This document shows, one piece after another, positions 37,430-53,222 of a stretch of DNA of 64,000 bases. The notes under the pieces were generated by a model that was given only the letters and a program-made list of their open reading frames with translations, searched no databases and was not told where the DNA came from. The stretch covers positions 372,001-436,000 of the forward strand of contig NZ_JAJFZN010000002.1 of assembly GCF_020731145.1 (NCBI RefSeq). The letters run 5' to 3'. The position numbers and the translations under genes were made by a program. The DNA comes from Sneathiella sp. HT1-7 (GTDB lineage: Bacteria > Pseudomonadota > Alphaproteobacteria > Sneathiellales > Sneathiellaceae). Position 1 is the first letter of the stretch, and each line of letters begins with the position of its first letter.

Positions 37430-38176
37430 TCAAGAGGAGAGCGCGTTATCAAATAGTTTCCCAAATCCGTTGACCTGGCATGTGTTTTTCATCAATTGCA
37501 GGCAATGCCAGGCCAGTGCCTGATTACTGGTGACAACGGGTTTGCCGAGTTTCTGTTCGACCTCCTCAATCACGAGAGAGGATCGGATCGCTGTACAGGA
37601 AATGAAGAGAGCATCCGCGTCGGGATCGCAGACTTGCATGGCGGCTTCTGCTATGGCAGCGGGGGGCAGGCCTGTCATTTCGATATCGTTATCGAGGCCG
37701 AAGCCTTCGATGTTCAGGATATCAAAGCCTTCAGTTTTAAAATTATCCGCGACTGCTGCGTTCACCATGTCGTCATAGGGGGTTAGGATAGATATTTTCT
37801 TGGCACTGAATGTTCGTAGGGCTTTCCCAGCGGAGAGAATAGGGTTCGTACAGGGAACACCCGGTTGCGCAATCTGGATAAGCCGCTCCAGTTCATACCC
37901 GCCGATTGCTGCCGTCCCGGAAGTGCAGCCATAGATTACGACATCGACGCCTATGCCGGGCAGCAAACCGCTTGCCGCACGGGTAATGTCGCCCGCCATC
38001 GCGCGTAAATTCTCAATAGTTAGCGGGTTGGCGTTGAGAACACGATTGGTGAAGAGATCAACACCCTTGGGGAGCATGCGACGGAGGTCCGTCTCGCTGT
38101 TGTAATCCGTTGCCAGCGCTACCAGACCAATTCTGCCGCCCGGTGCAATGTCTTCAAAGTTATAAGATACATTCAT
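37430..38176 (-). CDS. Asp/Glu racemase / maleate isomerase superfamily enzyme
   Basis: The 248-residue protein has the two-domain cysteine racemase fold with catalytic Cys84 (IYGCTSGTAA) and Cys194 (FISCTAIRSS). Two cysteines point to a racemase or maleate cis-trans isomerase rather than arylmalonate decarboxylase, which keeps only one. It is encoded five bases after a small gene of unknown function, divergent from the binding-protein gene at 38700. In the island it could isomerise a ring-opening product such as maleate or a carbamoyl-amino acid; this is inference. Confidence 0.82.
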   Translation of the reverse strand: MNVSYNFEDIAPGGRIGLVALATDYNSETDLRRMLPKGVDLFTNRVLNANPLTIENLRAMAGDITRAASGLLPGIGVDVVIYGCTSGTAAIGGYELERLIQIAQPGVPCTNPILSAGKALRTFSAKKISILTPYDDMVNAAVADNFKTEGFDILNIEGFGLDNDIEMTGLPPAAIAEAAMQVCDPDADALFISCTAIRSSLVIEEVEQKLGKPVVTSNQALAWHCLQLMKNTCQVNGFGKLFDNALSS

Positions 38177-38181
38177 GTTCT

Positions 38182-38520
38182 TTATTCCATTTCAGGCAAT
38201 TCAGGCGCTGCGCGATAACTTATGACGCGTGCGACATTTCCAGTTTTCGCAATCTTCCCTTCATGTATCATTTTATCGCCGGGTGCAAATATCAATTCCG
38301 CCTCCAGCGGGAGCATTACAACGGCTTCCAGAAGCATCCTATTGTACACTGAGCGGATTGAACGTTCGCCACATTCCAGCCTGAGTCCATGACCGAGGAA
38401 TCTGACATTGTTGCTAAAGGCGCGGCTAGCCTCACCATGGATTATATGGTGATCGGACCATTGTGTGTAATCACCTGAGTAAAAAATATGCAGACGATTT
38501 ATTGCATTTTTTCTGGGCAT
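38182..38520 (-). CDS. Uncharacterised 112-residue protein, cupin-like in pattern
   Basis: No family was recognised with confidence. Alternating hydrophobic strands with regular glycines (LGHGLRLECGERSIRSVYNRMLLEAVVMLPLEAELIFAPGDK) suggest a small beta-barrel, but the His/Glu metal motif of cupins is not evident. It sits five bases upstream of the racemase-like gene, so the two are surely co-transcribed, and it diverges from the first binding-protein operon of the island. Confidence 0.55.
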   Translation of the reverse strand: MPRKNAINRLHIFYSGDYTQWSDHHIIHGEASRAFSNNVRFLGHGLRLECGERSIRSVYNRMLLEAVVMLPLEAELIFAPGDKMIHEGKIAKTGNVARVISYRAAPELPEME

Positions 38521-38589
38521 TCCAGTCTAATTTTTGGTCAAAAAATTCATATCTGTAATGGTTTAGCCATCAGAATCTATAAGAATGTA

Positions 38590-38603
38590 ACTACTATAGT
38601 AGT
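38590..38603. promoter_or_regulatory. 14-bp perfect palindrome upstream of sigma-54 promoter 1
   Basis: ACTACTATAGTAGT is a perfect inverted repeat 11 bp upstream of the -24 element. It may be an activator or repressor site, but it is closer than a usual sigma-54 enhancer (80-150 bp), so repression or promoter-proximal binding is as likely. Confidence 0.4.
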
Positions 38604-38614
38604 ATTTACGACTT

Positions 38615-38630
38615 TGGCATGCTTCTTGCT
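38615..38630 (+). promoter_or_regulatory. Sigma-54 promoter of the first binding-protein gene
   Basis: TGGCATGCTTCTTGCT has GG and GC exactly ten bases apart, the invariant -24/-12 geometry of RpoN promoters (TGGCAC-n5-TTGC). A transcript would begin near 38641, about 59 bases before the ATG at 38700. The same element, in the same 15-base context, precedes the second binding-protein gene. Confidence 0.85.
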
Positions 38631-38699
38631 CTGTTCGTTGGGCGGTCAGCTGATAAGAGGCGACCATTGGAAGGTTTTAATCAGGAAGGATGGAGCAAT

Positions 38700-39905
38700 A
38701 TGGCGAAGGGATTTCTAAATCGGCTCAAGGTGGCTACCGCTGCGGTGGGTGTTGCTGCTCTCGGGTTGGTAGGTCAGGCTGTAGCTGCGGATGGCGTTGT
38801 GAAGATCGGGGCTCCGTTGGCACTTTCCGGCGGTCTCGCTGCGGAAGGTGCAAAGCAAAAGCTGGCTTATGATCTATGGCTAGAGCGAATCAATGCGGCC
38901 GGCGGCATTAATGTCGGTGGGGTCATGATGCCAGTTGAATTGATCACCTATGACTACCAGACTGATGGAAAACGCGCGAGCCAACTGGCGGAAAAACTGA
39001 TTATTGATGATAAAGTTGATTTTTTGACCGCTCCTTTTGGATCCGGTCATTCTAAGATCACCGCCGGTGTCGCGGAGCGTTATGGCGTTCCTATTATCGC
39101 GGTCGCGTCATCCGAGCCAGTTCATAATCAGGGCTTCAAAAACCTGTTTGGTACACTCGCTCCGTCCGGCGGCCTTATTGACGGTATGCTGGATTTGTTT
39201 ATGGCGAAGAAACCAGACATGAAAAAGATCGCTATCTATGGACGTGACGATGTTTTTCCAAAAATCATGGCGACATTAATGTCAAAGGGGGCTAGCGCCC
39301 GTGGGCTTGAAGTCGTCTATGAAGAACTCTATCCCGTCGGAACACTTGATCATGCGACCGCCACAGTAGGAATGCGCTCTGCCGCGCCGGACTGGATTTA
39401 TGTAACCGGCTATACAGAAGACCTGGTTCTTGTTCGTAAGCAAATGGCGGAGCAGGGGCTCGACGCACCGATTATTACAATGATTACTGGGCCAGCTTAT
39501 CGCGAATTTGTCGAAAATCTTGGGCCGCTCGCTGAGAATGTTACCAGCGCAACCTGGTGGCACTATTCTGCTGCCTATGCCGGAGATGATGTTTTTGGGA
39601 CAACGCAGGCCTTCACTGAAGCGGTTCAAAAAGCCTCTGGTGAGGATCCAGACTATGTTCACGCTTCTTCTGCCGCAGCTATGATTGCGTTGCAAAAAGC
39701 GATTGAAAAAGCCGGATCTCTGGATCGAGACGCCGTACGTGAAGCGCTTAAGACCCTTGAAATCGAGACATTCTATGGTCCGATCAAGTTTCGCGAAGAT
39801 GGCCTGAATGACAATCGCAATCTGCCGATTATACAAATTCAGGATGGCAAGCCGGTAATTTTGTCTCCCGCCGATATGGCAACCGTAGAAATGCGCTTGA
39901 ACTAA
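38700..39905 (+). CDS. Branched-chain/amide-type ABC substrate-binding protein (paralogue 1)
   Basis: The 401-residue protein has a signal peptide (MAKGFLNRLKVATAAVGVAA, cut near AVAADG). It then has the Peripla_BP_6 type I binding fold: KIGAPLALSGGLAAEG, INAAGGINVGG, DYQTDGKRASQLAEKLI. The ATG at 38700 follows GGAG and is the only sensible start because the sigma-54 start site lies at about 38641. It is clearly homologous along its whole length to the protein at 41113. It forms a two-gene unit with the PhyH gene, bounded by its own promoter and terminator. The ligand is unknown; the family binds amino acids, amides, urea and aromatic acids. Confidence 0.9.
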   Translation: MAKGFLNRLKVATAAVGVAALGLVGQAVAADGVVKIGAPLALSGGLAAEGAKQKLAYDLWLERINAAGGINVGGVMMPVELITYDYQTDGKRASQLAEKLIIDDKVDFLTAPFGSGHSKITAGVAERYGVPIIAVASSEPVHNQGFKNLFGTLAPSGGLIDGMLDLFMAKKPDMKKIAIYGRDDVFPKIMATLMSKGASARGLEVVYEELYPVGTLDHATATVGMRSAAPDWIYVTGYTEDLVLVRKQMAEQGLDAPIITMITGPAYREFVENLGPLAENVTSATWWHYSAAYAGDDVFGTTQAFTEAVQKASGEDPDYVHASSAAAMIALQKAIEKAGSLDRDAVREALKTLEIETFYGPIKFREDGLNDNRNLPIIQIQDGKPVILSPADMATVEMRLN

Positions 39906-39930
39906 TAGCTCTCAACTAAGGAGTATAATA

Positions 39931-40758
39931 ATGAGTGGATCCCTGACGCCAGAGGAGGTGGCGGCTTTCGAGCGCGATGGATACTTCATGAAAAGGCGGG
40001 CCATTACCGAAGCCCATGCCTTGGACTGTCGTCAGCGACTTGAGGCAATGGAAGAAAGCCTTCAGGAGGATTGTAATAAGCGCATGAAGATCAAGGCGCA
40101 TGTTGTCTCCCCCTGGATGGTCGACTTGGCGCGTAACCCGATAATCCTGGATGCGGTGGAATCGCTTCTGGGGCCGAATATCTTGCTTTTCGGGTCGTCC
40201 ATGTTTGCAAAAGCGGCACAGAGCGATCGGTTTGTGTCCTGGCATCAGGATTCAGCCTATTACGGCTTGACGCCGAATGACTCCGTAACGGTCTGGCTTG
40301 CCTTTACCCCAAGTAACAAGGGGAATGGAGGCTTGCGTGTGTTGCCCGGATCGCAAATGGGGGACAATATGGAGCATGATGAAACCTATGACCCAAAGAA
40401 CCTTCTTGCGAAGGGTCAGACAATTCGCGGCGTTGACGATAACAATGCCAAATATCTCGAATTGGAGCCGGGCGAGTTTTCTATCCATCATGTAAAGACA
40501 GCCCATGGCAGCCTTGGAAATTTCTCGGATGATCGCCGGATTGGGTTGGCGTTTTTCTATATCGGTGCGCATGTCAATTCGACATTGGGGCGACGCTCTG
40601 CGCTGCATGTGCGCGGTGAAGATGAATTCAATTATTGGGACGAGGATCCCTTGCCTCGATACGATATGGATCCGCTTACCCTGGATTTTCTGACGAATAT
40701 GTGGACGCAATATCAGAGTAAGGAAGTTCAGCAAGCGGCAAAGGCCGGAAAGCTGTAA
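39931..40758 (+). CDS. Phytanoyl-CoA dioxygenase (PhyH) family oxygenase
   Basis: The 275-residue 2-oxoglutarate/Fe(II) oxygenase has the HxD ligands H105 and D107 (FVSWHQDSAYYG), the distal His near 192 (KTAHGSLGNFSDDRR) and the Arg after it for 2-oxoglutarate. It is 25 bp after the binding-protein gene, with AAGGAG before its ATG, so it is in the same sigma-54 transcript. PhyH enzymes hydroxylate varied small molecules, including ectoine and phosphonates. Here it probably acts on the imported compound or a derivative. Confidence 0.88.
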   Translation: MSGSLTPEEVAAFERDGYFMKRRAITEAHALDCRQRLEAMEESLQEDCNKRMKIKAHVVSPWMVDLARNPIILDAVESLLGPNILLFGSSMFAKAAQSDRFVSWHQDSAYYGLTPNDSVTVWLAFTPSNKGNGGLRVLPGSQMGDNMEHDETYDPKNLLAKGQTIRGVDDNNAKYLELEPGEFSIHHVKTAHGSLGNFSDDRRIGLAFFYIGAHVNSTLGRRSALHVRGEDEFNYWDEDPLPRYDMDPLTLDFLTNMWTQYQSKEVQQAAKAGKL

Positions 40759-40840
40759 AAAAATCGCAGGCATAGAAAACCTGGGCGGTATTGCTCAGAT
40801 TAATGATATGTCCCTTTTGAGGTGTATTTCAAAATCTGAA

Positions 40841-40882
40841 AAAGTGGGTGGTTCCGGAAAAATCTGGCCATCCACTTTTTTT
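40841..40882 (+). terminator. Rho-independent terminator after the PhyH gene
   Basis: GTGGGTGG pairs with CCATCCAC (one G-U), extended by CCGG/CTGG, to form a 12-pair stem with a short AT loop, followed by TTTTTTT. It closes the binding protein-PhyH unit before the second binding-protein promoter. Confidence 0.9.
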
Positions 40883-41000
40883 ATGCAACGCCAGCTTCAA
40901 CTAACAATTTTCTCCTGCCTATTTTATGACCATGCCTGAATTAAATGGTTAAAAATTATACAATTTTAAGGCTCCTGAAAGCGGTAATTTTAAAATATCT

Positions 41001-41022
41001 GTTACGATAGTTATAGTTACGA
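41001..41022. repeat. Direct repeat GTTACGA before sigma-54 promoter 2
   Basis: GTTACGA occurs at 41001-41007 and 41016-41022, 15 bp apart. The second copy is part of the 15-base block TTACGACTTTGGCAT, shared exactly with promoter 1. The flanking DNA is AT-rich, as expected for IHF or activator contacts. Confidence 0.45.
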
Positions 41023-41025
41023 CTT

Positions 41026-41041
41026 TGGCATATCTCTTGCT
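41026..41041 (+). promoter_or_regulatory. Sigma-54 promoter of the second binding-protein gene
   Basis: TGGCATATCTCTTGCT has the invariant GG-n10-GC spacing and matches promoter 1 at 13 of 16 bases. The expected start is near 41052, leaving a leader of about 60 bases before the ATG at 41113. The Liv-type transporter genes follow, so nitrogen-type RpoN control of uptake is implied. Confidence 0.85.
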
Positions 41042-41112: not shown

Positions 41113-42327
41113 ATGAAAATAACACTCAAAAAAAGATTGACGGTTGCCGCTGCGGCAATGGCCATGACAATGGCTGGAAGCGTGGGGCTCGCCTCTGCGG
41201 ATGATGACGTGCTGGTCATAGGGGCTCCATTGGCGCTAACGGGCGGCTTGGCGGATGAAGGCAAGAAGCAGCAGGATGTCTGGAAACTCTGGCTCGACAA
41301 AATCAATGCCGCCGGTGGTATTGATGTGGCGGGCAAGAAAATGCAGGTCAAGTTTGTCGAGTATGATTACCAGACAGATGGCAAACGCGCTGGCCAGTTG
41401 GCTGAAAAGCTGATTAATGATGATGGTGTTGATGTGATTATGGCGCCATTCGGTTCGGGGCATACAAAGATTATTGCCGCTGTCGCAGAGCGCTATCAGG
41501 TACCAATGCTGGCCTGTGTCGCCTCATCAGTTTCCGTCTATGATCAGGGCTTTAAGTATCTTTTTGGAACCCTCGCGCCGAATACCGGCATGACGGAATC
41601 CATGGTCGAGTTCTTCAAGGAGAAGAAACCTGATCTCAAAAAGGTGGCTGTATATGGTCGGGATGACGTGTTTCCGAAAGCGATGGCAACGGCATTGTCA
41701 AAATCTGCTGAAACCGGCGGCCTTGATGTTGTGTATAACGAACTTTATGCCGTTGGAACCATGGATCACTCCGCAGCCATTTCCGCGATTAAATCGGCAG
41801 ATCCGGATTGGGTTTACATGACGGGATATACGCAGGATTTGATCCTGGGCCGCAAGCAGCTGGCGGATATGGGAGTAACAGCACCTATCGTGACGATGGT
41901 AACCGGCCCTGCCTATCGCGAATATACCGAAGGTCTGGGTGATTTGGCTGATGGTGTGACAAGCTCAACTTGGTGGCACCATTCCACTGCCTACACCGAT
42001 GCGGTTGGGCCATGGAGTACAACAGCAGATTTCTATGCGGATTTCACGGCCGCCTATAAGTCTGATCCTGATTATGTCTCTGCCTCATGCGCGGCGGCGG
42101 CAGATGTTCTGGTGAACGCTGTGCAGGTCGCAGGTTCCAAGGATAAACAGGCGGTTCGTGACGCTTTGGCCGCAACCGATATCTTGACATTCTACGGCCC
42201 GATTGATTTCGGCGAAAATGGTATGAACCAGGGCCGAGAAATGCCGATCATTCAGGTACAGGGTGAGGAAATTAAGGTCCTTTATCCGGCGTCTATCGCC
42301 AATGCTGAAATGAAAATGATCAAATAA
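41113..42327 (+). CDS. Branched-chain/amide-type ABC substrate-binding protein (paralogue 2)
   Basis: The 404-residue periplasmic protein has a signal peptide (MKITLKKRLTVAAAAMAMTM) and the Peripla_BP_6 blocks VIGAPLALTGGLADEG, INAAGGIDVAG and DYQTDGKRAGQLAEKLI. Long identical stretches with paralogue 1 (such as YDYQTDGKRA and VYGRDDVFPK) show a tandem duplication. AAAGGG lies six bases before ATG 41113. It heads the livHMGF-type genes and is probably their main receptor; both proteins may deliver to the same permease. Confidence 0.92.
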   Translation: MKITLKKRLTVAAAAMAMTMAGSVGLASADDDVLVIGAPLALTGGLADEGKKQQDVWKLWLDKINAAGGIDVAGKKMQVKFVEYDYQTDGKRAGQLAEKLINDDGVDVIMAPFGSGHTKIIAAVAERYQVPMLACVASSVSVYDQGFKYLFGTLAPNTGMTESMVEFFKEKKPDLKKVAVYGRDDVFPKAMATALSKSAETGGLDVVYNELYAVGTMDHSAAISAIKSADPDWVYMTGYTQDLILGRKQLADMGVTAPIVTMVTGPAYREYTEGLGDLADGVTSSTWWHHSTAYTDAVGPWSTTADFYADFTAAYKSDPDYVSASCAAAADVLVNAVQVAGSKDKQAVRDALAATDILTFYGPIDFGENGMNQGREMPIIQVQGEEIKVLYPASIANAEMKMIK

Positions 42328-42446: not shown

Positions 42447-43307
42447 GTGGACATCATTCAAATACTACTAAACGGCATTGTACTGGGATCACTCTATGCC
42501 TGCATCGCGATCGGCTTCTCGCTGGTATGGGGCGTGTTGAATATCATCAATATGCTGCATGGATCTTTCATTATTCTGGGAGGGTATCTGGCGTTTTTCG
42601 CGTGGCAGTATTCGGGCGTAAATCCGGTTTTTCTGCTCCCAATAATTGCGGCCTTATTATTTGGCCTGGGATACCTTCTGCAATATTTCTTTATCAATAA
42701 AGTCGTCATGTCACCGGTGCTGACAACCCTGACCCTGACGTTCGGGTTAGACATGATCCTCTATAATTTGATGACAGTCTTTTTCACCGCAACGCCAAGG
42801 CGTGTGACGCTGGACCTCGGCACGATAAACCTCGGCGATATGTATCTGCCGGTTGACCGTTTGATGGGCATGGGGTTGGCACTTTTCCTGACGGCACTGC
42901 TTTTCCTGGTGATGCGGGCATCAAAGATTGGCCGCGCCATTGTCGCCGTCCGCATGGATCGACAGGCCGCCACATTGATGGGCATTCGGGTGAATAATGT
43001 TTACGCCATAACATTTGGTATTGGCGCCTTTATGGCCGGTGCCGCCGGGGTGATTTTTTCCATGGTTTTCCCGATTACAACAAACCTGACGGGCACCTTC
43101 CTGGGGAAAGCGTTCGTGATCTGTGTGATCGGCGGGTTGGGCAGTGTACCGGGTGCCTTGATAGGCGGAATTGCACTTGGGCTGATTGAAAGCTTTGCCG
43201 GCTACACGATTGGCCCCCAGAATGCGACGACAGTTGGTTTTGTTCTCATGTTGTTTTTATTGATTGTCCGACCAACAGGTCTTGTCGGTGTAAAGGGATA
43301 CGAGTAA
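42447..43307 (+). CDS. Branched-chain-type ABC permease, LivH-like
   Basis: The 286-residue permease starts at GTG 42447 and has about eight membrane helices. It has the LivH-like N-terminus (QILLNGIVLGSLYACIAIGFSLVWGVLNIINMLHGSFIILG) and the ATPase-contact loop around AVRMDRQAATLMGIRVNNVY. It ends one base into the next permease gene (TAATG), so the two are coupled. In this island it likely moves a nitrogen compound rather than leucine, as in amide and urea importers of the same family. Confidence 0.9.
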   Translation: MDIIQILLNGIVLGSLYACIAIGFSLVWGVLNIINMLHGSFIILGGYLAFFAWQYSGVNPVFLLPIIAALLFGLGYLLQYFFINKVVMSPVLTTLTLTFGLDMILYNLMTVFFTATPRRVTLDLGTINLGDMYLPVDRLMGMGLALFLTALLFLVMRASKIGRAIVAVRMDRQAATLMGIRVNNVYAITFGIGAFMAGAAGVIFSMVFPITTNLTGTFLGKAFVICVIGGLGSVPGALIGGIALGLIESFAGYTIGPQNATTVGFVLMLFLLIVRPTGLVGVKGYE

Positions 43308-44281
43308 TGAAGCAGTTCCTTTATTTTGGCGCCTTTGCGCTTTGGGTCGCCTTGATCGCGGCCACTCCCTTACTTGCCGATAACTACACAATCCGGATTG
43401 CAATCTCGATTGCGATGTTCTCGGCGATGGCGGTTTCCTGGAATTTCATCGGTGGCTTTACCGGTTATCCCTCTTTCTCGACTGCGGCCTTTTTTGGGCT
43501 TGGGTGCTATGCCGGCGCGCTCGCGCAGCGTAACGGTATTCCCCTCGTGATGGCATGGGTATTCGCGACATTGTTTGTCGCCGTGTTCGCCGCAATGCTC
43601 GGGGCCATTATCCTGCGCTTGAAGGGGCATTACTTTGCGATTGGCTCAATCGCGATTGTCGATCTGACCCGCCTGATAACATCGTCATGGGGAAGCCTGA
43701 CCGGCGGCGGGGATGGATTGAATGTCCCGCTTTTGCAGGGCAGCCCACAAGAGGTATCGGCGCTTGTCCTCTATGTTATGCTGGCGATCCTGATTGTCGC
43801 TTTTCTGACGTCGATCTATGTGGACCGATCCCGGCTGGGTTTTGGACTCAAATGTATCAGCCAGAATGAAGACGCGGCGGATATGGTGGGCGTCAATACG
43901 ACATCCTTTAAGATTGTTGCCTATACCTTGTCCGCAGTATTCTGCGGTGCTGTTGGGGCGGTGTACGCATCCTGGGTTGGTTATATCGATCCGACGGACA
44001 GCTTTTCGATACTCTTGACTTTGAAAGTGCCGGTTATGGTTCTCTTGGGCGGTGCGGGCACATTACTTGGACCGGTTTTGGGTGCGGGCGTATTCGTCAT
44101 GCTGGAGGAAGTGTTCTGGGCTAATTTCCTTGAATGGAACCGGGCCATTCTCGGCGGTATTATCGTCTTTTTGATCTTTTTCCTGCCAAATGGGTTGCTG
44201 AAAATTCAGTATCGCACACTCTACGGGGCGTTGGTGCAAAAGTTACGTAGTGCCCCCAAGCAAGCGGAGAAAAGTTCATGA
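43307..44281 (+). CDS. Branched-chain-type ABC permease, LivM-like
   Basis: The 324-residue permease shows LivM traits: AVSWNFIGGFTGYPSFSTAAFFGLGCY near the N-terminus, LKGHYFAIGSIAI, and the coupling loop QNEDAADMVGVNTTSFKIVAYTLSA. It overlaps livH by one base and livG by four. With LivH it forms the heteromeric channel of the importer. Confidence 0.9.
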   Translation: MKQFLYFGAFALWVALIAATPLLADNYTIRIAISIAMFSAMAVSWNFIGGFTGYPSFSTAAFFGLGCYAGALAQRNGIPLVMAWVFATLFVAVFAAMLGAIILRLKGHYFAIGSIAIVDLTRLITSSWGSLTGGGDGLNVPLLQGSPQEVSALVLYVMLAILIVAFLTSIYVDRSRLGFGLKCISQNEDAADMVGVNTTSFKIVAYTLSAVFCGAVGAVYASWVGYIDPTDSFSILLTLKVPVMVLLGGAGTLLGPVLGAGVFVMLEEVFWANFLEWNRAILGGIIVFLIFFLPNGLLKIQYRTLYGALVQKLRSAPKQAEKSS

Positions 44282-45036
44282 CTGAAATTCTCAGACTGGA
44301 AAATGTGAGTAAAAGTTTTGGCGGTAACCGTGCGGTCAATGACGTTTCATTCAGCCTGGAAGAAGGAGAGATCATCGGATTGATCGGACCAAATGGTGCG
44401 GGCAAGACGACACTGGTCAATCTGATTACCGGAGTACATCCCCTGTCCGCGGGAAAGGTGATTTTCGCTGGAGAGGATGTAAGTCGACAGCAGGCATTTC
44501 AGGCCGCGAGGCGCGGGCTGGCGCGAACCTTTCAGATCGTCCAGCCATTTCCGAAAATGACAGTTCTGGAAAATGTGGCCGCCGGGGCTTTGTTCGGCGG
44601 CGGAACTGGTTCCGTTGAAGATGCTTTGGATTTGGCGCATGAAGAGTTGAAATTCGTGGGCTTGGACGCTGTCGCGGACACACCGGCGTCATCGCTGGCA
44701 TTGCCAAACCGGAAACGATTGGAACTCGCCAAGAGCCTGGCCATGCGTCCCAAATTCCTGCTTCTTGATGAGGTGAACGCCGGTCTGAACGCCTCAGAAA
44801 TCGATGGCGCCCTTGATCTGATCCGCAAGATTGCGGCGCGGGGGGTCACAATTCTGATTATTGAGCATTTGATGAAGGTGGTGCTTTCAATTTCCCAAAG
44901 AATACTGGTGTTGCATCATGGGGAGCTGATCGCACAGGGCGATCCCCGTACGGTTATTGAAGATCCCCAAGTGGTAGAGGCCTATTTGGGCTCTAAATTT
45001 GCAGCGCGCGTTAAAGCGGAGTCCCATCATGCCTGA
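44278..45036 (+). CDS. Branched-chain-type ABC ATPase, LivG-like
   Basis: The 252-residue ATPase has Walker A GPNGAGKT, the LivG-type ARTFQIVQPFPKMTVLENV Q-loop stretch, and Walker B FLLLDEVNAGLN. It departs from the consensus at the signature: where LSxGQ is expected the protein reads SLALPNRKRLELAKSLA, so the conserved Ser-Gly-Gly/Tyr-Gly core is weak. LivG proteins often have LPYGxQR-type variants, so activity is still expected. Start and stop overlap the neighbouring genes. Confidence 0.9.
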   Translation: MTEILRLENVSKSFGGNRAVNDVSFSLEEGEIIGLIGPNGAGKTTLVNLITGVHPLSAGKVIFAGEDVSRQQAFQAARRGLARTFQIVQPFPKMTVLENVAAGALFGGGTGSVEDALDLAHEELKFVGLDAVADTPASSLALPNRKRLELAKSLAMRPKFLLLDEVNAGLNASEIDGALDLIRKIAARGVTILIIEHLMKVVLSISQRILVLHHGELIAQGDPRTVIEDPQVVEAYLGSKFAARVKAESHHA

Positions 45037-45745
45037 GTCGTTTCTCGAAATTAGTAATGTTCAAGCCGGTTATGGCGATGTGCGTGTTCTGTGGGATATT
45101 TCCCTCTCGGTCAACAAGGGGGAAATCGCCTGCATAGTTGGCTCCAACGGCGCGGGAAAGACCACGCTACTCAACACTATTTCCGGCATCGTCAAGCCAA
45201 CTGCAGGCAGTATAAAACTGGACGGGCAGGAACTTGTCGGAACGCTGCCCGATGGGGTCTTGAAAGCCGGCATTGCCCATGTCCCTGAAGGGCGCCGCCT
45301 CTTCAAAGGATTATCCGTTCAGGATAACTTGATGCTGGGGGCTTATTTGCGCGATGATCGCGAGGCGATCAAGCAGGATCTGGAGTTTGTCTATGATATC
45401 TTCCCGATCTTGAAAGAACGGGCGACGCAGGATGCTACGACAATGTCCGGTGGAGAACAGCAGATGTGCGCCATCGGGCGGGGCATTATGTCAAAACCCC
45501 GCGTATTGATGATTGATGAACTTTCCCTTGGCCTGGCGCCGCGTCTTGTCGACCGATTGAGCGAAACATTGTTGGAAATTAATAAAGCCGGGTTGACCAT
45601 TTTGCTGGTTGAGCAGGATGTAATGACCGCCTTCGAAATTGCGCAGCACGGCTTCGTTATTGAAACGGGCCGGGTTTCAATTTCTGATACGACGGATGCG
45701 CTCGGCGAAAATCCGAAAATCAAGGAAGCCTATATGGGGATTTAA
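45029..45745 (+). CDS. Branched-chain-type ABC ATPase, LivF-like
   Basis: The 238-residue ATPase starts at 45029 (MPESFLEISNVQAGYG), with GGAG eight bases upstream and overlapping livG by eight. It has Walker A GSNGAGKTT, the LivF hallmark HVPEGRRLFKGLSVQDNLMLGAY, signature TMSGGEQQMCAIGRG and Walker B VLMIDELSLGLAP. It completes the importer and converges on the phosphoribosyltransferase gene with a four-base overlap. Confidence 0.92.
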   Translation: MPESFLEISNVQAGYGDVRVLWDISLSVNKGEIACIVGSNGAGKTTLLNTISGIVKPTAGSIKLDGQELVGTLPDGVLKAGIAHVPEGRRLFKGLSVQDNLMLGAYLRDDREAIKQDLEFVYDIFPILKERATQDATTMSGGEQQMCAIGRGIMSKPRVLMIDELSLGLAPRLVDRLSETLLEINKAGLTILLVEQDVMTAFEIAQHGFVIETGRVSISDTTDALGENPKIKEAYMGI

Positions 45746-46874: not shown

Positions 46875-48545
46875 CTAACCCTCCGGCCAGGGAGAAACGC
46901 CGCGCCCAATCAACCCTGTCGTCCCCGTTCGCTCCACCATTCCAAGGTTAATACCCAAACATGTCCGGGGGCGCGTCAGGTCCAGTCCGACCATGATGCC
47001 GCTATCCGACAAAGCGGGATGTGGCCCAATGAACGGTGCATGTGCGGCAGGGCTGAAGAAATCGGGATGAATATGTCCGCGATATCCTTCGGCCAAGCTG
47101 GGTGTAGTTCTCAAACAGGCGGCACCGAAGCCGAGCGCATCAATTACAGCACTGTCCCCAATTGCCGGCAAAGCTTCCGCCATTTCCTGACCTTCAAATT
47201 TAATTCCTACCGGAGGCAAGGCTGGACGTGTAATCCATGTATTCGGATCAGATGCCAGTTTATAACCGATGTCCTGCCCATTGCCACCGCAGGCAATGAT
47301 CATGTTGCTTTTGGCAATATTGGCCCCCGCACCGATCATAAGCGCAGCAGATGCCATGATGAAGTTCAGGGAAAACTGACCGGCAGAGGCTAGATACGCC
47401 ACCGTTTCAGTGTCGTCTGGAGCTGAAAACAAACTTCGAAATTTTGCTTGCGTCGCGGCGACCTGACCATGCAGGTCATCTCCGTTTTTAAGGCCATGAT
47501 CTAAAACTGGTAGCAAGGGGATTGGCGCGGTCAGCATTCTTGCGAGAACTGTACCAATGTGCTTCGACAACCGTTGTAACAATGCCAGTCCATCGGGATG
47601 TCCATTACCCAGTCTCAGCGCGTAGGGAAGGGGGCCGTCATTCAAGGGTGAAAACCGTCGATTGCCGGGTGCCGCCATATCCTCAACTTCCAGGCAATAC
47701 GCGCTGGGGCCGACGATAAAAGCTAACGGCGTTACCACACCAAAATCCTGTGCGGGACGGAGGTTAAGCTCACCATTTTTCAACTGGGTAAAAGCATCCT
47801 CTTCAGAGGCTGCCCAGCCTTCAAGTTGAGCTGCCGCAACCAGCGAATTGCGCATTGGCCGCGGTAAATTTCCCTGATCAGAAAAGGGAGGGCCAGCATG
47901 CAGCAGGGTGCGACCGGGCAGGTTCGGGATCAGCTCTTCGAGCTTCGCAATGCGTGTCAGGGCAGGCTCAACCGCTATCAGATTGTTATATGATTTCTGC
48001 GTAGCTATTGAGGAGCGGGATAAACTCGCGGTACCATTGTCGGCGGGCACATTGGATGGAATTTGTTCGTCTGTATTCGGGGTGTTTGCGTTAATTATCT
48101 GCGTCATCATTTCTATCAGACGCGGGCGATCTTCGGGCGAGAGGCTTTCAATAGTGCGTTCATGCGCGCGTTGTGCCTTTGCATCCAAAGTATTGAGAAT
48201 GTTCCGCCCTTCCTCAGTGAGGGAGGTGAGGCGGACGCGCCGGTCACTGCTAGAAACCCGGCGCTTGATCAGTCCGCGCCTTTTAAGCCGGTCCAGAATA
48301 TCCGTCATATTGGTTTTGTCGATTGCCACAGCCTTGGCGAGGGTTGTTTGATCCACCGCTCCACTTTGCTGAAGCGCCGAGAGGACAGAATACATCACAG
48401 GCGTAATGTTCTGGTCACCGCATTCAAGGGCGAACAGAGCAGTATGAATTTGATGCAAACGACGGATCAGAACGCCGGGACGCAATGTCAGGGATTCATT
48501 TCGCCATGGACCAGAGGATGCGGTAGTGGAGTCGTCTTGTTTCAT
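46875..48545 (-). CDS. MarR-DUF1116 fusion protein (regulator fused to AllG/YlbE-family domain)
   Basis: The single 556-residue frame joins two domains. Residues about 20-150 are a MarR winged helix with the catabolic-regulator opening RPGVLIRRLHQIHTALFALE, the recognition helix DQTTLAKAVAIDKTNMTDILDRL and the wing SSDRRVRLTSLTEEG. After a Ser/Thr-rich linker (about 155-195), residues 205-556 match DUF1116: LPGRTLLHAGPPFSD, PMRNSLVAAAQLEGWA, FGVVTPLAFIVGPS, NRRFSPLNDG, and GINLGMVERTGTTGLIGRGV. DUF1116 proteins (YlbE/AllG) are linked to oxamate carbamoyltransferase of allantoin breakdown. The GDDLHGQV stretch lacks the His/Asn pattern I recall from the enzyme, which suggests ligand sensing. 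It is last in the coxLMS-type operon. Confidence 0.85.
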   Translation of the reverse strand: MKQDDSTTASSGPWRNESLTLRPGVLIRRLHQIHTALFALECGDQNITPVMYSVLSALQQSGAVDQTTLAKAVAIDKTNMTDILDRLKRRGLIKRRVSSSDRRVRLTSLTEEGRNILNTLDAKAQRAHERTIESLSPEDRPRLIEMMTQIINANTPNTDEQIPSNVPADNGTASLSRSSIATQKSYNNLIAVEPALTRIAKLEELIPNLPGRTLLHAGPPFSDQGNLPRPMRNSLVAAAQLEGWAASEEDAFTQLKNGELNLRPAQDFGVVTPLAFIVGPSAYCLEVEDMAAPGNRRFSPLNDGPLPYALRLGNGHPDGLALLQRLSKHIGTVLARMLTAPIPLLPVLDHGLKNGDDLHGQVAATQAKFRSLFSAPDDTETVAYLASAGQFSLNFIMASAALMIGAGANIAKSNMIIACGGNGQDIGYKLASDPNTWITRPALPPVGIKFEGQEMAEALPAIGDSAVIDALGFGAACLRTTPSLAEGYRGHIHPDFFSPAAHAPFIGPHPALSDSGIMVGLDLTRPRTCLGINLGMVERTGTTGLIGRGVSPWPEG

Positions 48546-48605: not shown

Positions 48606-49772
48606 TCAAAACCTCAAGGCCCTTTTGATCCAACCCCAGAGCGCGGCGCTCAATAGGGACAAGCCATTTATATTGGTTTGTGTTGTCTGGTCCGGTTCTT
48701 GCCCCTTTGCAAGCGCCTCAATTGAGGCGGCGACCTGACCCAGAATACGGTCCGCAATCTCGGCCACCAGAGTGGGGCGGCTGAACTGAGATAACGGGCC
48801 CGTCAATTTATAGATCATCTCAAGGGCGAGTTCCGTGCCACCTTCCGGCAAACCGGTTACACGAAAATCAAGCATACCATCGAGTTGAGAGCGGCTCAGG
48901 CCATCCTTGCCACGACCAATTACATGACCGGATTTTTCAGCCTCATTCAGGTCCATTTTTGCTGTGCCGGTAAAGGCGGCCTTGATCGGACCCATGGCGA
49001 TAGCACATTGCCCTTGCAACAGATTGTCGTCGGTGATGTTGTCAATACGGGCGCCCGGAATACAAGACGCAATCTTTTCAGGATCCGATATTATATCCCA
49101 AATCTCAGACGTCGAAGCTTCAAAGGCCAGGGTTCGAGAAAGAGTGGGTGCGGCGGCAAGGGATTGCTTCGTTGGAATACTGGTTGCGCCCGATGTTTTA
49201 GCCGCGACGGAGGAAGTAGTCTGTGAAATGGCCTCAATCGGCTCAACCGCACTTGTTCCGGAGTTTTGCAGTGCTCTCGTCTGTGGTTGAATTTTTGCGG
49301 CGGGTGGGTTGTTTTCCAGAACATCAACGATTGCCGCAACTATCCCGGCATAGCCAGTACAGCGGCACAAATTCCCGGACAGTTCTTTGCGGATACGGTC
49401 TGCATCTGCATTGGGAAGGCGCCGGACAATATCGTAACCGGTCACCAGCATGCCAGGTGTGCAATAACCACACTGAAGCCCGTGGTGTCGCTTGAAGGCA
49501 TCGCGTAACGCCAGCATCAGGGGATCATCATCAAATCCTTCGACGCTGCGAACTTCCGCGCCTTTGCAGGCCGCGGCCAGCGTAATGCAGGACCGCGTCG
49601 GCCGTCCATCGACAAACACGGTGCAGGCACCACAGACACCCTGTTCACATCCCAAATGCGTTCCCGTCAACAGCAGGTCTTCGCGCAGAAAATCAGCAAG
49701 ATGCGTGCGGGGCTCCGCCGTTTCGGAAACCGGCGTGCCATTAACGACAAGATCGACAGTCGTATCGGTCAT
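48606..49772 (-). CDS. CoxS-CoxG fusion: [2Fe-2S] subunit joined to SRPBCC (CoxG) domain
   Basis: This is a single 388-residue chain. Residues 1-155 are the small subunit of a molybdenum hydroxylase with both clusters: C42, C47, C50, C62 (plant-type) and C101, C104, C136, C138 (LQCGYC, NLCRCTG). After an Ala/Thr/Ser-rich linker, residues about 210-350 form a CoxG/SRPBCC domain (EIWDIISDPEKIASCIPGARI, GPIKAAFTGTAKMDL), and the chain ends in a short hydrophobic, basic helix that could anchor it to the membrane. CoxG tethers CO dehydrogenase to the membrane. Start and stop are coupled to coxM by ATGA. Confidence 0.88.
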   Translation of the reverse strand: MTDTTVDLVVNGTPVSETAEPRTHLADFLREDLLLTGTHLGCEQGVCGACTVFVDGRPTRSCITLAAACKGAEVRSVEGFDDDPLMLALRDAFKRHHGLQCGYCTPGMLVTGYDIVRRLPNADADRIRKELSGNLCRCTGYAGIVAAIVDVLENNPPAAKIQPQTRALQNSGTSAVEPIEAISQTTSSVAAKTSGATSIPTKQSLAAAPTLSRTLAFEASTSEIWDIISDPEKIASCIPGARIDNITDDNLLQGQCAIAMGPIKAAFTGTAKMDLNEAEKSGHVIGRGKDGLSRSQLDGMLDFRVTGLPEGGTELALEMIYKLTGPLSQFSRPTLVAEIADRILGQVAASIEALAKGQEPDQTTQTNINGLSLLSAALWGWIKRALRF

Positions 49773-50596
49773 GCTGAAAACTCCTTAGCTACTTTTATCT
49801 GCTCGATGGCTCTGGTCAGAGCAACGGCATGGAGGTGAAGCGCGGTCGCGGGCTGGTCCGGGATAGCCTCAGACAAAGCCTCTATTGGGGATTGCGTTCC
49901 ATCAAGAACGGCATCGGGGTTGAGGAGAAGGGCGGGTTGCCGGCCCAGTGCCCCAATTGCGATGCGCGTACGGCTTTTTGATGGATCAACCAGGATCGCG
50001 GCGCTTGCCTTGGCAAATTCCCCGACCTGTCGTGTGTATTTCCAATAAGCCCAACGCGCGCCTACTCCTGGTTTTGGAACCTCTACAGCCGTTAGAATAT
50101 CTTCCGGACCGAGGGCCGTGCTATAGGGTCCGGTGATGAATTCTTCCATGGGTATGGTGCGTAAAGGCGCGTTCGTTTCAGCTCCGCGGACAAGGGCTGT
50201 CGCACAAAGTCCGGTCATGACGATAACCCAGTCCGCCGCGGGATCGGCATGGGCGAGACTGCCGCCAATTGTTCCGCGATTACGCACAGCACGGTAGGCA
50301 ATATTGGCCGCCGCATCGCGCATCCAGTGACCGGTTGGATCCGGGACCGCTCCATCTTCGACCTCTGCATGAGTGATGGCGGCACCGAACCGAATATTGT
50401 CCTCATGCTCCTCAACAACGCGCAATTCCGGTAACAAGGAAACATCGATTAATCCGGCAGGGCGGGTCAACCGCAAATTCAGCATCGGCCCAAGAGACTG
50501 ATTGCCGGATACCAGCTTGTTTTGCTCGCCACGAAGAGCGCTTTGGGCATCCGTCAAAGATTGGGCAACGGCAAAGTCAAATAGGGCAGGCTTCAT
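49769..50596 (-). CDS. FAD-binding medium subunit of a molybdenum hydroxylase (CoxM-like)
   Basis: The 275-residue subunit has the two FAD motifs of CoxM-type proteins: GNQSLGPMLNLRLTRP (31-46) and TIGGSLAHADPAAD (109-122). It passes electrons from the Mo subunit through the iron-sulfur subunit to FAD and on to an acceptor. It is translationally coupled to both the large and small subunit genes. Only the family is certain; the acceptor may be a quinone if the CoxG tail anchors the complex. Confidence 0.92.
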   Translation of the reverse strand: MKPALFDFAVAQSLTDAQSALRGEQNKLVSGNQSLGPMLNLRLTRPAGLIDVSLLPELRVVEEHEDNIRFGAAITHAEVEDGAVPDPTGHWMRDAAANIAYRAVRNRGTIGGSLAHADPAADWVIVMTGLCATALVRGAETNAPLRTIPMEEFITGPYSTALGPEDILTAVEVPKPGVGARWAYWKYTRQVGEFAKASAAILVDPSKSRTRIAIGALGRQPALLLNPDAVLDGTQSPIEALSEAIPDQPATALHLHAVALTRAIEQIKVAKEFSA

Positions 50597-52971
50597 ATTG
50601 AGTCTCCCTTAGCAGGTTTTGAAAGCTCGGCACTCGCAATTGCCGACAGCACACGCTCCGGCGTCATCGGGACTTCCGTGACTTCAGCGCCAATAAATGA
50701 AAGGGCATCATTAACCGCATTTGCAATTGCTGCAGGCGGGCCAATAGCTCCGCTTTCCCCAATGCCCTTTTGGCCGAAACGGCTCAAGGGTGAAGGGGTC
50801 TCCATATGTTCAATTCTGATGTTCGGCATATCGGAGGCGAGCGGTAAATGATAATCCGCAAGAGTTGAGGCCAGTGGCTGACCGGAGGCATCAAAGCGCA
50901 TTTCCTCAAACAGGGCAGTTCCGATACCCTGCGCCGCGCCGCCATAGACCTGCCCATCCACAATCATCGGGTTGATCATCGTACCGGCATCCTCAACAAT
51001 GACGTAGTCGAGCAAACGGACATGGCCAAGGTCCATATCAACCTCCACCTTCACCGCATGGCAGGCATAGGAAAAAGTTCCCGTATCCTTGGTGGTTTTA
51101 TAACCGGCGACGACATCCAGACCTCTAGGGTCCACATCGTCGGGCAGCAATTGCGGTTTCAGGTACCAGGTTCGCGCCACTTCTTCGATACTTATGGTGC
51201 TACTGCCAGCGGAGGCCATGCCGTTTTCGAGTGTAATGTCCGCAGGGTCGGCTTGCAGCAAGTGACCCGCGATTTTACGGATACGTTCCCCCAGCGATTC
51301 ACAGGCAGTCCCTACCGCGCCGCCGGCCATGACGATACATCGCGATCCCCACGTGCCGGTGGAGTAGGGCGTATAGGCAGTATCTCCATGGACGAGTTTG
51401 ATCTTTTCCGGATCAATTCCAATTTCACTGTTGGCGATCTGTGCGAGGGTTGTTTCCAGCCCTTGGCCATGGCTGTGTACACCAACTCGCAATTCAAGGC
51501 CGCCGTCAGGCGTCAGGCGGGCAGTTGCTTGCTCAAACCCCGGTACCATAGGAATGCCCCATCCATGATAGACAGATGTGCCGTGCGCTCCTTGCTCGCA
51601 GAAAATAGATAAACCGACCCCAATCCGGGTGCGACCTGTCTGGTTTTTCTGGTCCGCGCGAATGCCCGTCATGTTGATCGCGGCGACCGCACGCTCAAGA
51701 GCTTCTGGATAGTTACCGCTATCAAAGAATTTGTTCGTGATGTTGGTAAAAGGCATCTGATCCGGCTGCACAAGATTGCGCGCCCGAATGGCTTCTGGCG
51801 TAATTTTTAACTCTCTAGCAATACCGTCCAGCAAAACTTCCAATGCGAAACAAACCCCGGTTCTGGCGACGCCGCGGAAGGGCAGAATAGGAGGCTTATT
51901 CGTGGCGACCGACCAGGTTTTGCAGCGATAACCCCGCATAATATAGGGTCCTGGTAATATGCTGGCGACCTGTGCAGCCTCAAGGCAGGCGGAGAAAGGA
52001 TAGCTGGAATAGGCTCCGGAATCGACAATGGCAGTACAATCCACCGCCAGCAATTCACCGTCTGCTTTCGCATAGCCTGTAATTTCATAGCTATGTTCCC
52101 GGCAGTTGGCGCCCGCGATCAAATGCTCACGCCGATCTTCAATCCATCGGATGGGGCGATCCAGCTTCATCGCAAGGAAGCAGGCGCAGACTTCTTCGGC
52201 GAGCAGGATGCCTTTATAACCGAACCCGCCCCCGACATCCGGCGCGATTACCCGAATTTGCCCATGATCCATATTAAGACAGTCCGCCAGACCCGTGCGC
52301 ACAATATGCGGCATCTGTGTCGCAGAGTAGAGGGTGAGGAGTTCCAGGTTCCGGTCCCAGACCGCAACAAGGCCGCGCCCTTCAATGGGCGCCATACATT
52401 GCCGTGCCGTCTTGAAGCTGCGCTTGATAACAACGTCAGCGTCTGCAATCGCCGCCTCAAAATTGATATCGGCGTTGCTTTCAAGGAACGAATTCTCATC
52501 CCAATCTTCATGCAGCAAGGGGCTATCTTTGTCGCGAGCTTTGGTCATGTCATGGACTGCAGGCAATTCATCAAAGACAATGTCGATTTTCTCGGTCAGG
52601 TCTTCGGCTTTTGCTCGACTATCGGCAAGGCATGCGGCTATTGGCTCCCCCACATGACGAACTTTTTCATCTGCCAGTATGGGTTGGGTGGACGGGCGAA
52701 AGCCCGGTAATCCGGAAACAGCGCGAATACCGGACACCCCGGTCAGATCCCGACCGAAAAACACCCTTTTATCCGACTGTTCCGGTTTCATTTGGGAAAT
52801 AATTCTAGCATGCGCAAGTGGGCTTCTTAAAAACGCCAGCTCCAGCATTCCGGGCATGCGTATATCGGCTATGTAACGGCCCTTGCCATTTAAGTAGCGA
52901 TCATCTTCTTTTCGCATGAGCCGCGCGCCGATGCCCGTCTCTCGTTCTTTGGCTTCTTGATCGTTACTCAT
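50593..52971 (-). CDS. Molybdopterin-binding large subunit of a xanthine-oxidase-family hydroxylase (not CODH)
   Basis: The 792-residue subunit has the PDVGGGFGYKG and GIGESGAIGPPA (E739) signatures of the family; the Glu is the catalytic base. The active-site loop reads PFRGVAR (364-370), differing from AYRCSFR of form I CO dehydrogenase and AYRGAGR of form II, so CO is not expected to be the substrate. Such enzymes hydroxylate N-heterocycles (purines, nicotinate, isoquinoline-like) or aldehydes. Start set at 52971 after AAAGG. It is first gene of the four-gene minus operon ending in the MarR-DUF1116 fusion. Confidence 0.9.
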   Translation of the reverse strand: MSNDQEAKERETGIGARLMRKEDDRYLNGKGRYIADIRMPGMLELAFLRSPLAHARIISQMKPEQSDKRVFFGRDLTGVSGIRAVSGLPGFRPSTQPILADEKVRHVGEPIAACLADSRAKAEDLTEKIDIVFDELPAVHDMTKARDKDSPLLHEDWDENSFLESNADINFEAAIADADVVIKRSFKTARQCMAPIEGRGLVAVWDRNLELLTLYSATQMPHIVRTGLADCLNMDHGQIRVIAPDVGGGFGYKGILLAEEVCACFLAMKLDRPIRWIEDRREHLIAGANCREHSYEITGYAKADGELLAVDCTAIVDSGAYSSYPFSACLEAAQVASILPGPYIMRGYRCKTWSVATNKPPILPFRGVARTGVCFALEVLLDGIARELKITPEAIRARNLVQPDQMPFTNITNKFFDSGNYPEALERAVAAINMTGIRADQKNQTGRTRIGVGLSIFCEQGAHGTSVYHGWGIPMVPGFEQATARLTPDGGLELRVGVHSHGQGLETTLAQIANSEIGIDPEKIKLVHGDTAYTPYSTGTWGSRCIVMAGGAVGTACESLGERIRKIAGHLLQADPADITLENGMASAGSSTISIEEVARTWYLKPQLLPDDVDPRGLDVVAGYKTTKDTGTFSYACHAVKVEVDMDLGHVRLLDYVIVEDAGTMINPMIVDGQVYGGAAQGIGTALFEEMRFDASGQPLASTLADYHLPLASDMPNIRIEHMETPSPLSRFGQKGIGESGAIGPPAAIANAVNDALSFIGAEVTEVPMTPERVLSAIASAELSKPAKGDSI

Positions 52972-53078
52972 ATCAACCTTTCTCTTGCGGCTCGAAAAAT
53001 CGCCAACTTTGATGAGATGGCGTTGGCGCAAAGATCCCTGCTTAAAGGGGCGCCGGATTGCTTTTTGAGCCTGCTAAT

Positions 53079-53093: not shown

Positions 53094-53222
53094 AGTACAA
53101 TAATGGATTTTCAAAAATAATTGTAGATATAATTTTAGCTATTACAACTTTTTCCTTTTCCCATTGTGCGCTGCGGGATATATTTGTTCTAAAGCCTGTC
53201 AAAATGATAAAGGAAGTCGACG

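Follow-up and report, generated by a model that had tools for sequence, protein, structure and literature searches.

Paired σ54-type promoters with a shared adjoining element in an uptake and breakdown island of Sneathiella

The island and its two promoters

The DNA considered here is a stretch of 64,000 nucleotides from contig NZ_JAJFZN010000002.1 of Sneathiella sp. HT1-7, referred to below as the window. Between positions 38700 and 54488 it contains an island encoding an ATP-binding cassette (ABC) transporter with two binding proteins, a PhyH dioxygenase, a Rieske protein, a phosphoribosyltransferase, a molybdenum hydroxylase with a fused CoxG domain, and an amidohydrolase. Each of the two binding-protein genes is preceded by a -24/-12 promoter sequence of the σ54 type, designated P1 and P2 in the following, and it is the regulation of these two promoters that we address in this study. 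Parts of the island are present in 75 named loci, most of them alpha- and betaproteobacterial.

The gene for the first substrate-binding protein (Peripla_BP_6; 38700..39905, plus strand) is followed by that of a PhyH-family dioxygenase (39931..40758, plus strand). The gene for the second (Peripla_BP_6; 41113..42327, plus strand) is followed by the genes for two permeases and two ATPases of the same ABC transporter (42447..45745, plus strand; starts at 42447, 43307, 44278 and 44999), which is of the branched-chain/urea type. A Shine-Dalgarno-like sequence was recognized by eye in front of both binding-protein genes. The original prediction had spoken of paralogous receptor genes downstream of the two promoters, and this description holds, as both products are periplasmic binding proteins that share 58% of their amino acids. 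Further downstream, three subunits of a molybdenum hydroxylase of the xanthine dehydrogenase/carbon monoxide dehydrogenase type are encoded on the minus strand (48606..53031). A function of the two binding proteins as urea binders (UrtA) was considered and rejected on the basis of their TIGR03407 scores (79.2 and 72.9 bits versus a cut-off of 492.75). Because the island encodes a hydroxylase, a dioxygenase, a Rieske protein, a phosphoribosyltransferase and an amidohydrolase, its substrate is probably a nitrogen-containing heterocycle or a ureide.

P1 (TGGCATGCTTCTTGCT; 38615..38630, plus strand) and P2 (TGGCATATCTCTTGCT; 41026..41041, plus strand) have predicted transcription starts at about 38640 and 41051, respectively. 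Both show the exact GG-N10-GC spacing, and their boxes are close to the σ54 consensus as it is given in the part of PMC12316311 available to us, being of the TGGCAC-N5-7-TTGCT type with TGGCAT instead of TGGCAC. Extended upstream, the two sites form the 25-mers TTACGACTTTGGCATGCTTCTTGCT (38606-38630) and TTACGACTTTGGCATATCTCTTGCT (41017-41041), which agree in 22 of 25 bases and are identical in the first 15. The spacing and the identical 15-base context were the core of the original prediction, and both were confirmed in the sequence. The 25-mer pattern occurs twice in the window and never in 100 shuffled versions of it. A scan of the 3.83-Mb genome with this pattern, a check of the kind that had been proposed along with the prediction, returned only P1 and P2 when up to three mismatches were allowed, and the reversed control pattern returned nothing. 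The view that two near-consensus σ54 promoters precede the genes of two paralogous binding proteins of a single ABC transporter is thus right.

Conservation of the σ54 site in related loci

Close relatives of binding protein 1 were found in nine of 191 genomes searched, the genome of the window included, and the scan of a named genome collection yielded the 75 related loci mentioned above. Together with the window these loci contain 91 binding-protein genes, 89 of which have a readable upstream region (the first binding-protein genes of L049 and L091 were left out). For a σ54 site we required a score of at least 20 out of 20.5, since a threshold of at least 13 is uninformative (81 of the 89 regions on the forward strand, 75 on the reverse strand, 78.8 expected from shuffles). 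With the stricter threshold, a site on the coding strand was detected in 27 of the 89 regions, whereas 200 rounds of shuffling gave 0.155 on average and never more than 2; L120 (TGGTACG, score 19.0) is excluded from this number. Clustering at 80% identity groups the 27 regions into 13 clusters, and the distance from the site to the first residue ranges from 47 to 146 bp. All Sneathiella P1 and P2 regions with readable upstream sequence have the site, which for P1 is at the same place in the Sneathiella orthologues; that of P2 is likewise kept in relatives. Given this conservation and the single rpoN gene in the genome, control of P1 and P2 by σ54 is well supported.

In 12 further regions of the 89, all of them from Xanthobacteraceae according to their titles, a σ54 site is present on the opposite strand. 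In these loci (L087, L089, L090, L092, L095, L096, L099-L102, L119 and L122), the site is upstream of the binding-protein gene at a distance of about 280-325 bp. In L087, the one Xanthobacteraceae locus inspected in detail, the outward-facing site heads a gene for a CoxG-domain protein, which is followed by the genes for hydroxylase subunits. Depending on the lineage, the σ54 site thus precedes either the transporter or catabolic genes, and this variation suggests that the system came under nitrogen control on more than one occasion. Among the loci with this transporter is also a contig labelled as a metagenome-assembled genome of Bordetella parapertussis (L056), a label that looks doubtful.

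The element adjoining the -24 box

The block TTACGACTT, shared by P1 and P2, makes up the right end of an element of about 23 bp with partial dyad symmetry. At P1, this operator-like element (ACTACTATAGTAGTATTTACGAC; 38590..38612, plus strand) adjoins the -24 box, has a position weight matrix score of 24.9 and includes the perfect 14-bp palindrome ACTACTATAGTAGT at 38590-38603. Its counterpart at P2 (GTTACGATAGTTATAGTTACGAC; 41001..41023, plus strand; score 24.6, alignment of relatives) also adjoins the -24 box. The element is conserved in other families as well. In 16 of the 27 σ54-positive promoters, and in 7 of the 13 cluster representatives, the word TTACG precedes TGGC by 4-5 nt; among 4218 other upstream positions from these loci there was no such case. 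A related operator-like element (TTGTAGATATAATTTTAGCTATTACAACTT; 53121..53150, plus strand) is located in the DNA that separates the hydroxylase operon from the amidohydrolase gene; its right-half word TTACAACT was present in this intergenic region of the window and of all four relatives fetched, and in the same five sequences no convincing σ54 site was found there.

One of the explanations originally offered for the conserved bases was a contact site directly above the -24 position. A conserved element is indeed found at this place, and its fixed distance from TGGC in 16 of 27 promoters, which is within reach of polymerase, would agree with P1 and P2 being plain NtrC/σ54 promoters in which the block serves as an extended contact for σ54 or the polymerase alpha subunit, with no operator involved. 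We consider this unlikely. Upstream of the first binding-protein gene of L052 and L057, two other species, the element is located 24 nt before TGGC, that is, about 20 bp or roughly two helical turns further up, and the related word between the hydroxylase and amidohydrolase genes is not accompanied by a convincing σ54 site. Moreover, the genome has six further strict -24/-12 sites, and the block is missing from all of them. Because of the displaced element in L052 and L057 and the related word at the σ54-free intergenic region, we favour the interpretation that the shared block belongs to a putative operator for a separate regulator.

The alternative explanation in the original prediction was a recent duplication of promoter plus gene. 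The 15 identical bases and the 16 of 20 identical positions just above the -24 box speak for a common origin of this kind, or for local gene conversion; in the core, 13 of 16 positions are identical. Elsewhere upstream, P1 and P2 agree in only 1-9 of 20 positions, except for 13 of 20 at -60 to -80, and downstream in 18 of 60. The binding proteins share 58% of their residues, and their genes 61% of the coding bases and 36% of the third codon positions. In addition, they belong to two separate, supported clades, each of which has members from Oceanibaculum and Hwanghaeella, which dates the gene duplication to before these families split. The low identity at third positions and the separate clades rule out a recent duplication of promoter and gene, and that the block as such goes back to this event or to gene conversion is improbable, even though P1 resembles P2 in Sneathiella and L051, while the promoters of the first binding-protein gene in L052, L053 and L057 are laid out differently. 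On account of the latter distribution, it is possible that the P2 promoter was copied once to the position before gene 1, which would then be an older event in the Sneathiella lineage. Since the block is kept at P2-type promoters in other families, selection would hold it whatever its origin, and it is selection for shared sites, rather than recent duplication, that appears to have preserved the likeness of P1 and P2.

Candidate regulators and their proposed interplay

RpoN control had originally been taken to tie the island either to nitrogen status or to a dedicated enhancer-binding activator. The genome gives three strong and three weak hits for enhancer-binding-type domains, and the strong ones are NtrC, NtrX and FlbD by curated cut-offs (NtrC: TIGR01818, 707.6 bits versus a cut-off of 558.6). 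The GAFTGA loop, which serves as a criterion for activators in the portion of PMC12316311 accessible to us, was read in NtrC and FlbD and is absent from NtrX. When the 75 related loci were searched with NtrC, NtrX and FlbD probes, none was found to encode an activator domain of this type. A dedicated activator thus finds no support, and the link to nitrogen status is supported, as NtrC is the sole GAFTGA activator besides FlbD and NtrC-like dyads are present upstream of the promoters. Because the clear enhancer-binding proteins are only NtrC, NtrX, which has no GAFTGA, and the flagellar FlbD, NtrC is by elimination the likely activator of P1 and P2.

The dyad upstream of P1 (TGCATTTTTTCTGGGCA; 38503..38519, plus strand) is centred about 103 bp before the -24 box, and a weaker one upstream of P2 (TGCCTATTTTATGACCA; 40916..40932, plus strand) about 102 bp before it; each deviates from the pattern by one mismatch. 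All four Sneathiella P1 regions examined (window, L048, L050 and L055) have a dyad of the form TGCA-N9-(A/G/T)GCA 103 bp upstream of the -24 box, and the P2 dyad is partly conserved among the Sneathiella P2 orthologues. Some Xanthobacteraceae promoters (L095, L096 and L099) have TGCGTTAATTTTGGGCA at -103 to -105. Dyads of the form YGC-N11-GCR are present in 15 of the 27 σ54-positive upstream regions (500 rounds of shuffling: mean 5.8, maximum 13), a count that overstates independence since the regions are mutually related and some are GC-rich. In the genome, the derived dyad pattern occurs at nine places with at most one mismatch, three of which have a σ54 site 102-127 bp downstream, namely P1, P2 and the urea-binding protein gene urtA; recovery of P1 and urtA is circular, as the pattern was built from these dyads and that of urtA. 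The other six places are inside open frames of 741-2376 nt. The dyad common to urtA points to NtrC, and a role of NtrX or FlbD in driving P1 and P2 is very improbable: both proteins are encoded in the genome, but NtrX is without GAFTGA, and FlbD accompanies flagellar genes, its gene having a neighbour for a MotA-like protein (by eye). Other σ54 sites of the genome precede flagellin and FlgK-like genes, again as judged by eye.

Between the P1 dyad and the promoter lies an A/T-rich stretch (TGGTCAAAAAATTCATATCT; 38535..38554, plus strand) that is identical in 13 of 20 positions to the same interval of P2 (TGGTTAAAAATTATACAATT; 40946..40965, plus strand), and it is speculative to regard it as a bending site of the IHF type. 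Within 37430-38520 (minus strand), a gene for a EutA/arylmalonate-decarboxylase-like protein and a frame of 112 amino acids are oriented away from P1, and neither had a match in the related loci searched. It is the frame of 112 amino acids whose 5' end is overlapped by the P1 dyad.

A candidate for the local regulator is encoded within the island by a MarR-AllG fusion gene (46875..48545, minus strand). The MarR protein is conserved together with the island, with about 40-89% identity in the loci that have it, and all element-bearing loci whose contig reaches that far encode MarR at an identity of at least 55%. Of 18 sequences checked, three have MarR fused to AllG (window, L050 and L055), and in the remaining 15 MarR is separate. 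Operators of MarR-family regulators are short dyads overlapping promoters, and here a dyad-like conserved element is located beside a promoter, with the MarR gene in the same island; the differences are that this promoter is of the σ54 type, that MarR is fused to AllG in Sneathiella, and that the operator is a prediction from sequence. We infer that the MarR protein of the island is most likely the one that binds the predicted operator. AllG resembles a subunit of oxamate carbamoyltransferase, an enzyme that in E. coli is encoded by the three genes allFGH (according to an excerpt of PMC11326118). As the Sneathiella genome holds a single AllG, the MarR-fused copy, and no AllH was found in it, the AllG part is unlikely to function as a working subunit of this enzyme.

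Taken together, P1 and P2 are likely to be NtrC-activated σ54 promoters with an abutting operator, which probably serves the MarR protein of the island. Apart from the circularity of the dyad search, a number of observations weigh against this interpretation. Regarding the dyads, that of P2 fails the stricter YGC-N11-GCR form, and with two mismatches the dyad pattern is barely more frequent than its reversed control (61+48 versus 43+38). Regarding the operator, the matrix score of the intergenic element is only 8.4 in the window, and in relatives it amounts to 8.4 (G017), 5.5 (G021), 5.3 (G158) and 17.9 on the other strand (G052); its kinship with the elements at P1 and P2 therefore rests mainly on the half-site and on position. 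A looser form of the element, GTNRTNNTTACRACT, is not enriched genome-wide (37 versus 108 in the control). In Rhodobacterales and several betaproteobacterial loci, a MarR relative of lower identity is encoded although the element is missing, and the association between MarR and element is confounded by kinship. Regarding the promoters, the σ54 site is absent from most betaproteobacterial loci and from all six Rhodobacterales-type loci (L094, L104-L107 and L109). The latter case fits with NtrC as the activator, since NtrC of Rhodobacterales is reported to be without the GAFTGA loop in the part of PMC10274813 at our disposal. Four of these loci (L094, L104, L105 and L106) display a different repeated word of the GTATACTGACGATA / GTATGCTGACGAA type in front of the binding-protein gene, possibly the site of another regulator. 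Finally, the -24/-12 pattern taken alone is found at chance level in the window when two mismatches are allowed (45 observed versus 37 expected), and its strict form is little commoner in the genome than the reversed control (8 versus 3 sites). That P1 and P2 are not promoters and merely resemble them by chance, within A/T-rich intergenic DNA, is nevertheless extremely improbable, because conservation of the σ54 site upstream of orthologous genes, at the same place in relatives, lifts them above chance.

In the mechanism that we propose for these NtrC-activated promoters, nitrogen shortage would turn on P1 and P2 and thereby provide two alternative binding proteins, the gene of one being followed by the dioxygenase gene and that of the other by the permease and ATPase genes. 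NtrC, bound to the dyads about 103 bp upstream, would contact RNA polymerase-σ54 at the -24/-12 boxes. A local regulator, most likely MarR of the island, would have its operator before the -24 box, with the shared block as the right end of this operator; once bound there, the regulator might block polymerase until substrate is present, such that only nitrogen shortage and substrate together would open the promoter. Nutrient uptake would thus be controlled by NtrC in the ordinary way, and the extra, conserved operator-like site would add a local layer. A more specific version, which we regard as doubtful, is a two-key switch: MarR, on the operator adjoining the -24 box, would directly restrain the σ54 polymerase, and NtrC would signal nitrogen shortage from about 100 bp away; the AllG domain would act as a metabolite sensor in the manner of a trigger-enzyme repressor, and the same operator family would join the transporter and catabolic operons of an N-heterocycle island in several alphaproteobacterial families.

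The nearest analogue that we found is argT-hisJQMP of enteric bacteria, in which two paralogous binding proteins serve one permease and argT is expressed from an NtrC-activated σ54 promoter (as described in the section of PMC6640053 available to us). The likeness consists in the two paralogous binding proteins for one ABC permease and in NtrC/σ54 control, of argT there and, by prediction, of P1 and P2 here. By contrast, hisJ has a σ70 promoter and is controlled by ArgR, whereas in the island both binding-protein genes have a σ54 site with the same abutting element; the transporter class also differs, that of the island being of the branched-chain type. A second parallel is the urtA operon under NtrC, whose transporter belongs to the same superfamily and which in this genome has a σ54 promoter and a similar dyad. 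The differences are that both binding proteins of the island are far below the UrtA cut-off and that the urtA promoter of this genome is without the TTACGAC element present at P1 and P2. Literature searches for Sneathiella together with σ54 found nothing related, and those for NtrC sites and urea transport in alphaproteobacteria found nothing; we make no claim beyond these searches.

Our analysis would make nitrogen a controlling signal for a widespread uptake and breakdown island, whose substrate can accordingly be sought among nitrogen-bearing compounds. A further outcome is a testable case of a σ54 promoter with a second conserved site adjoining the -24 box.

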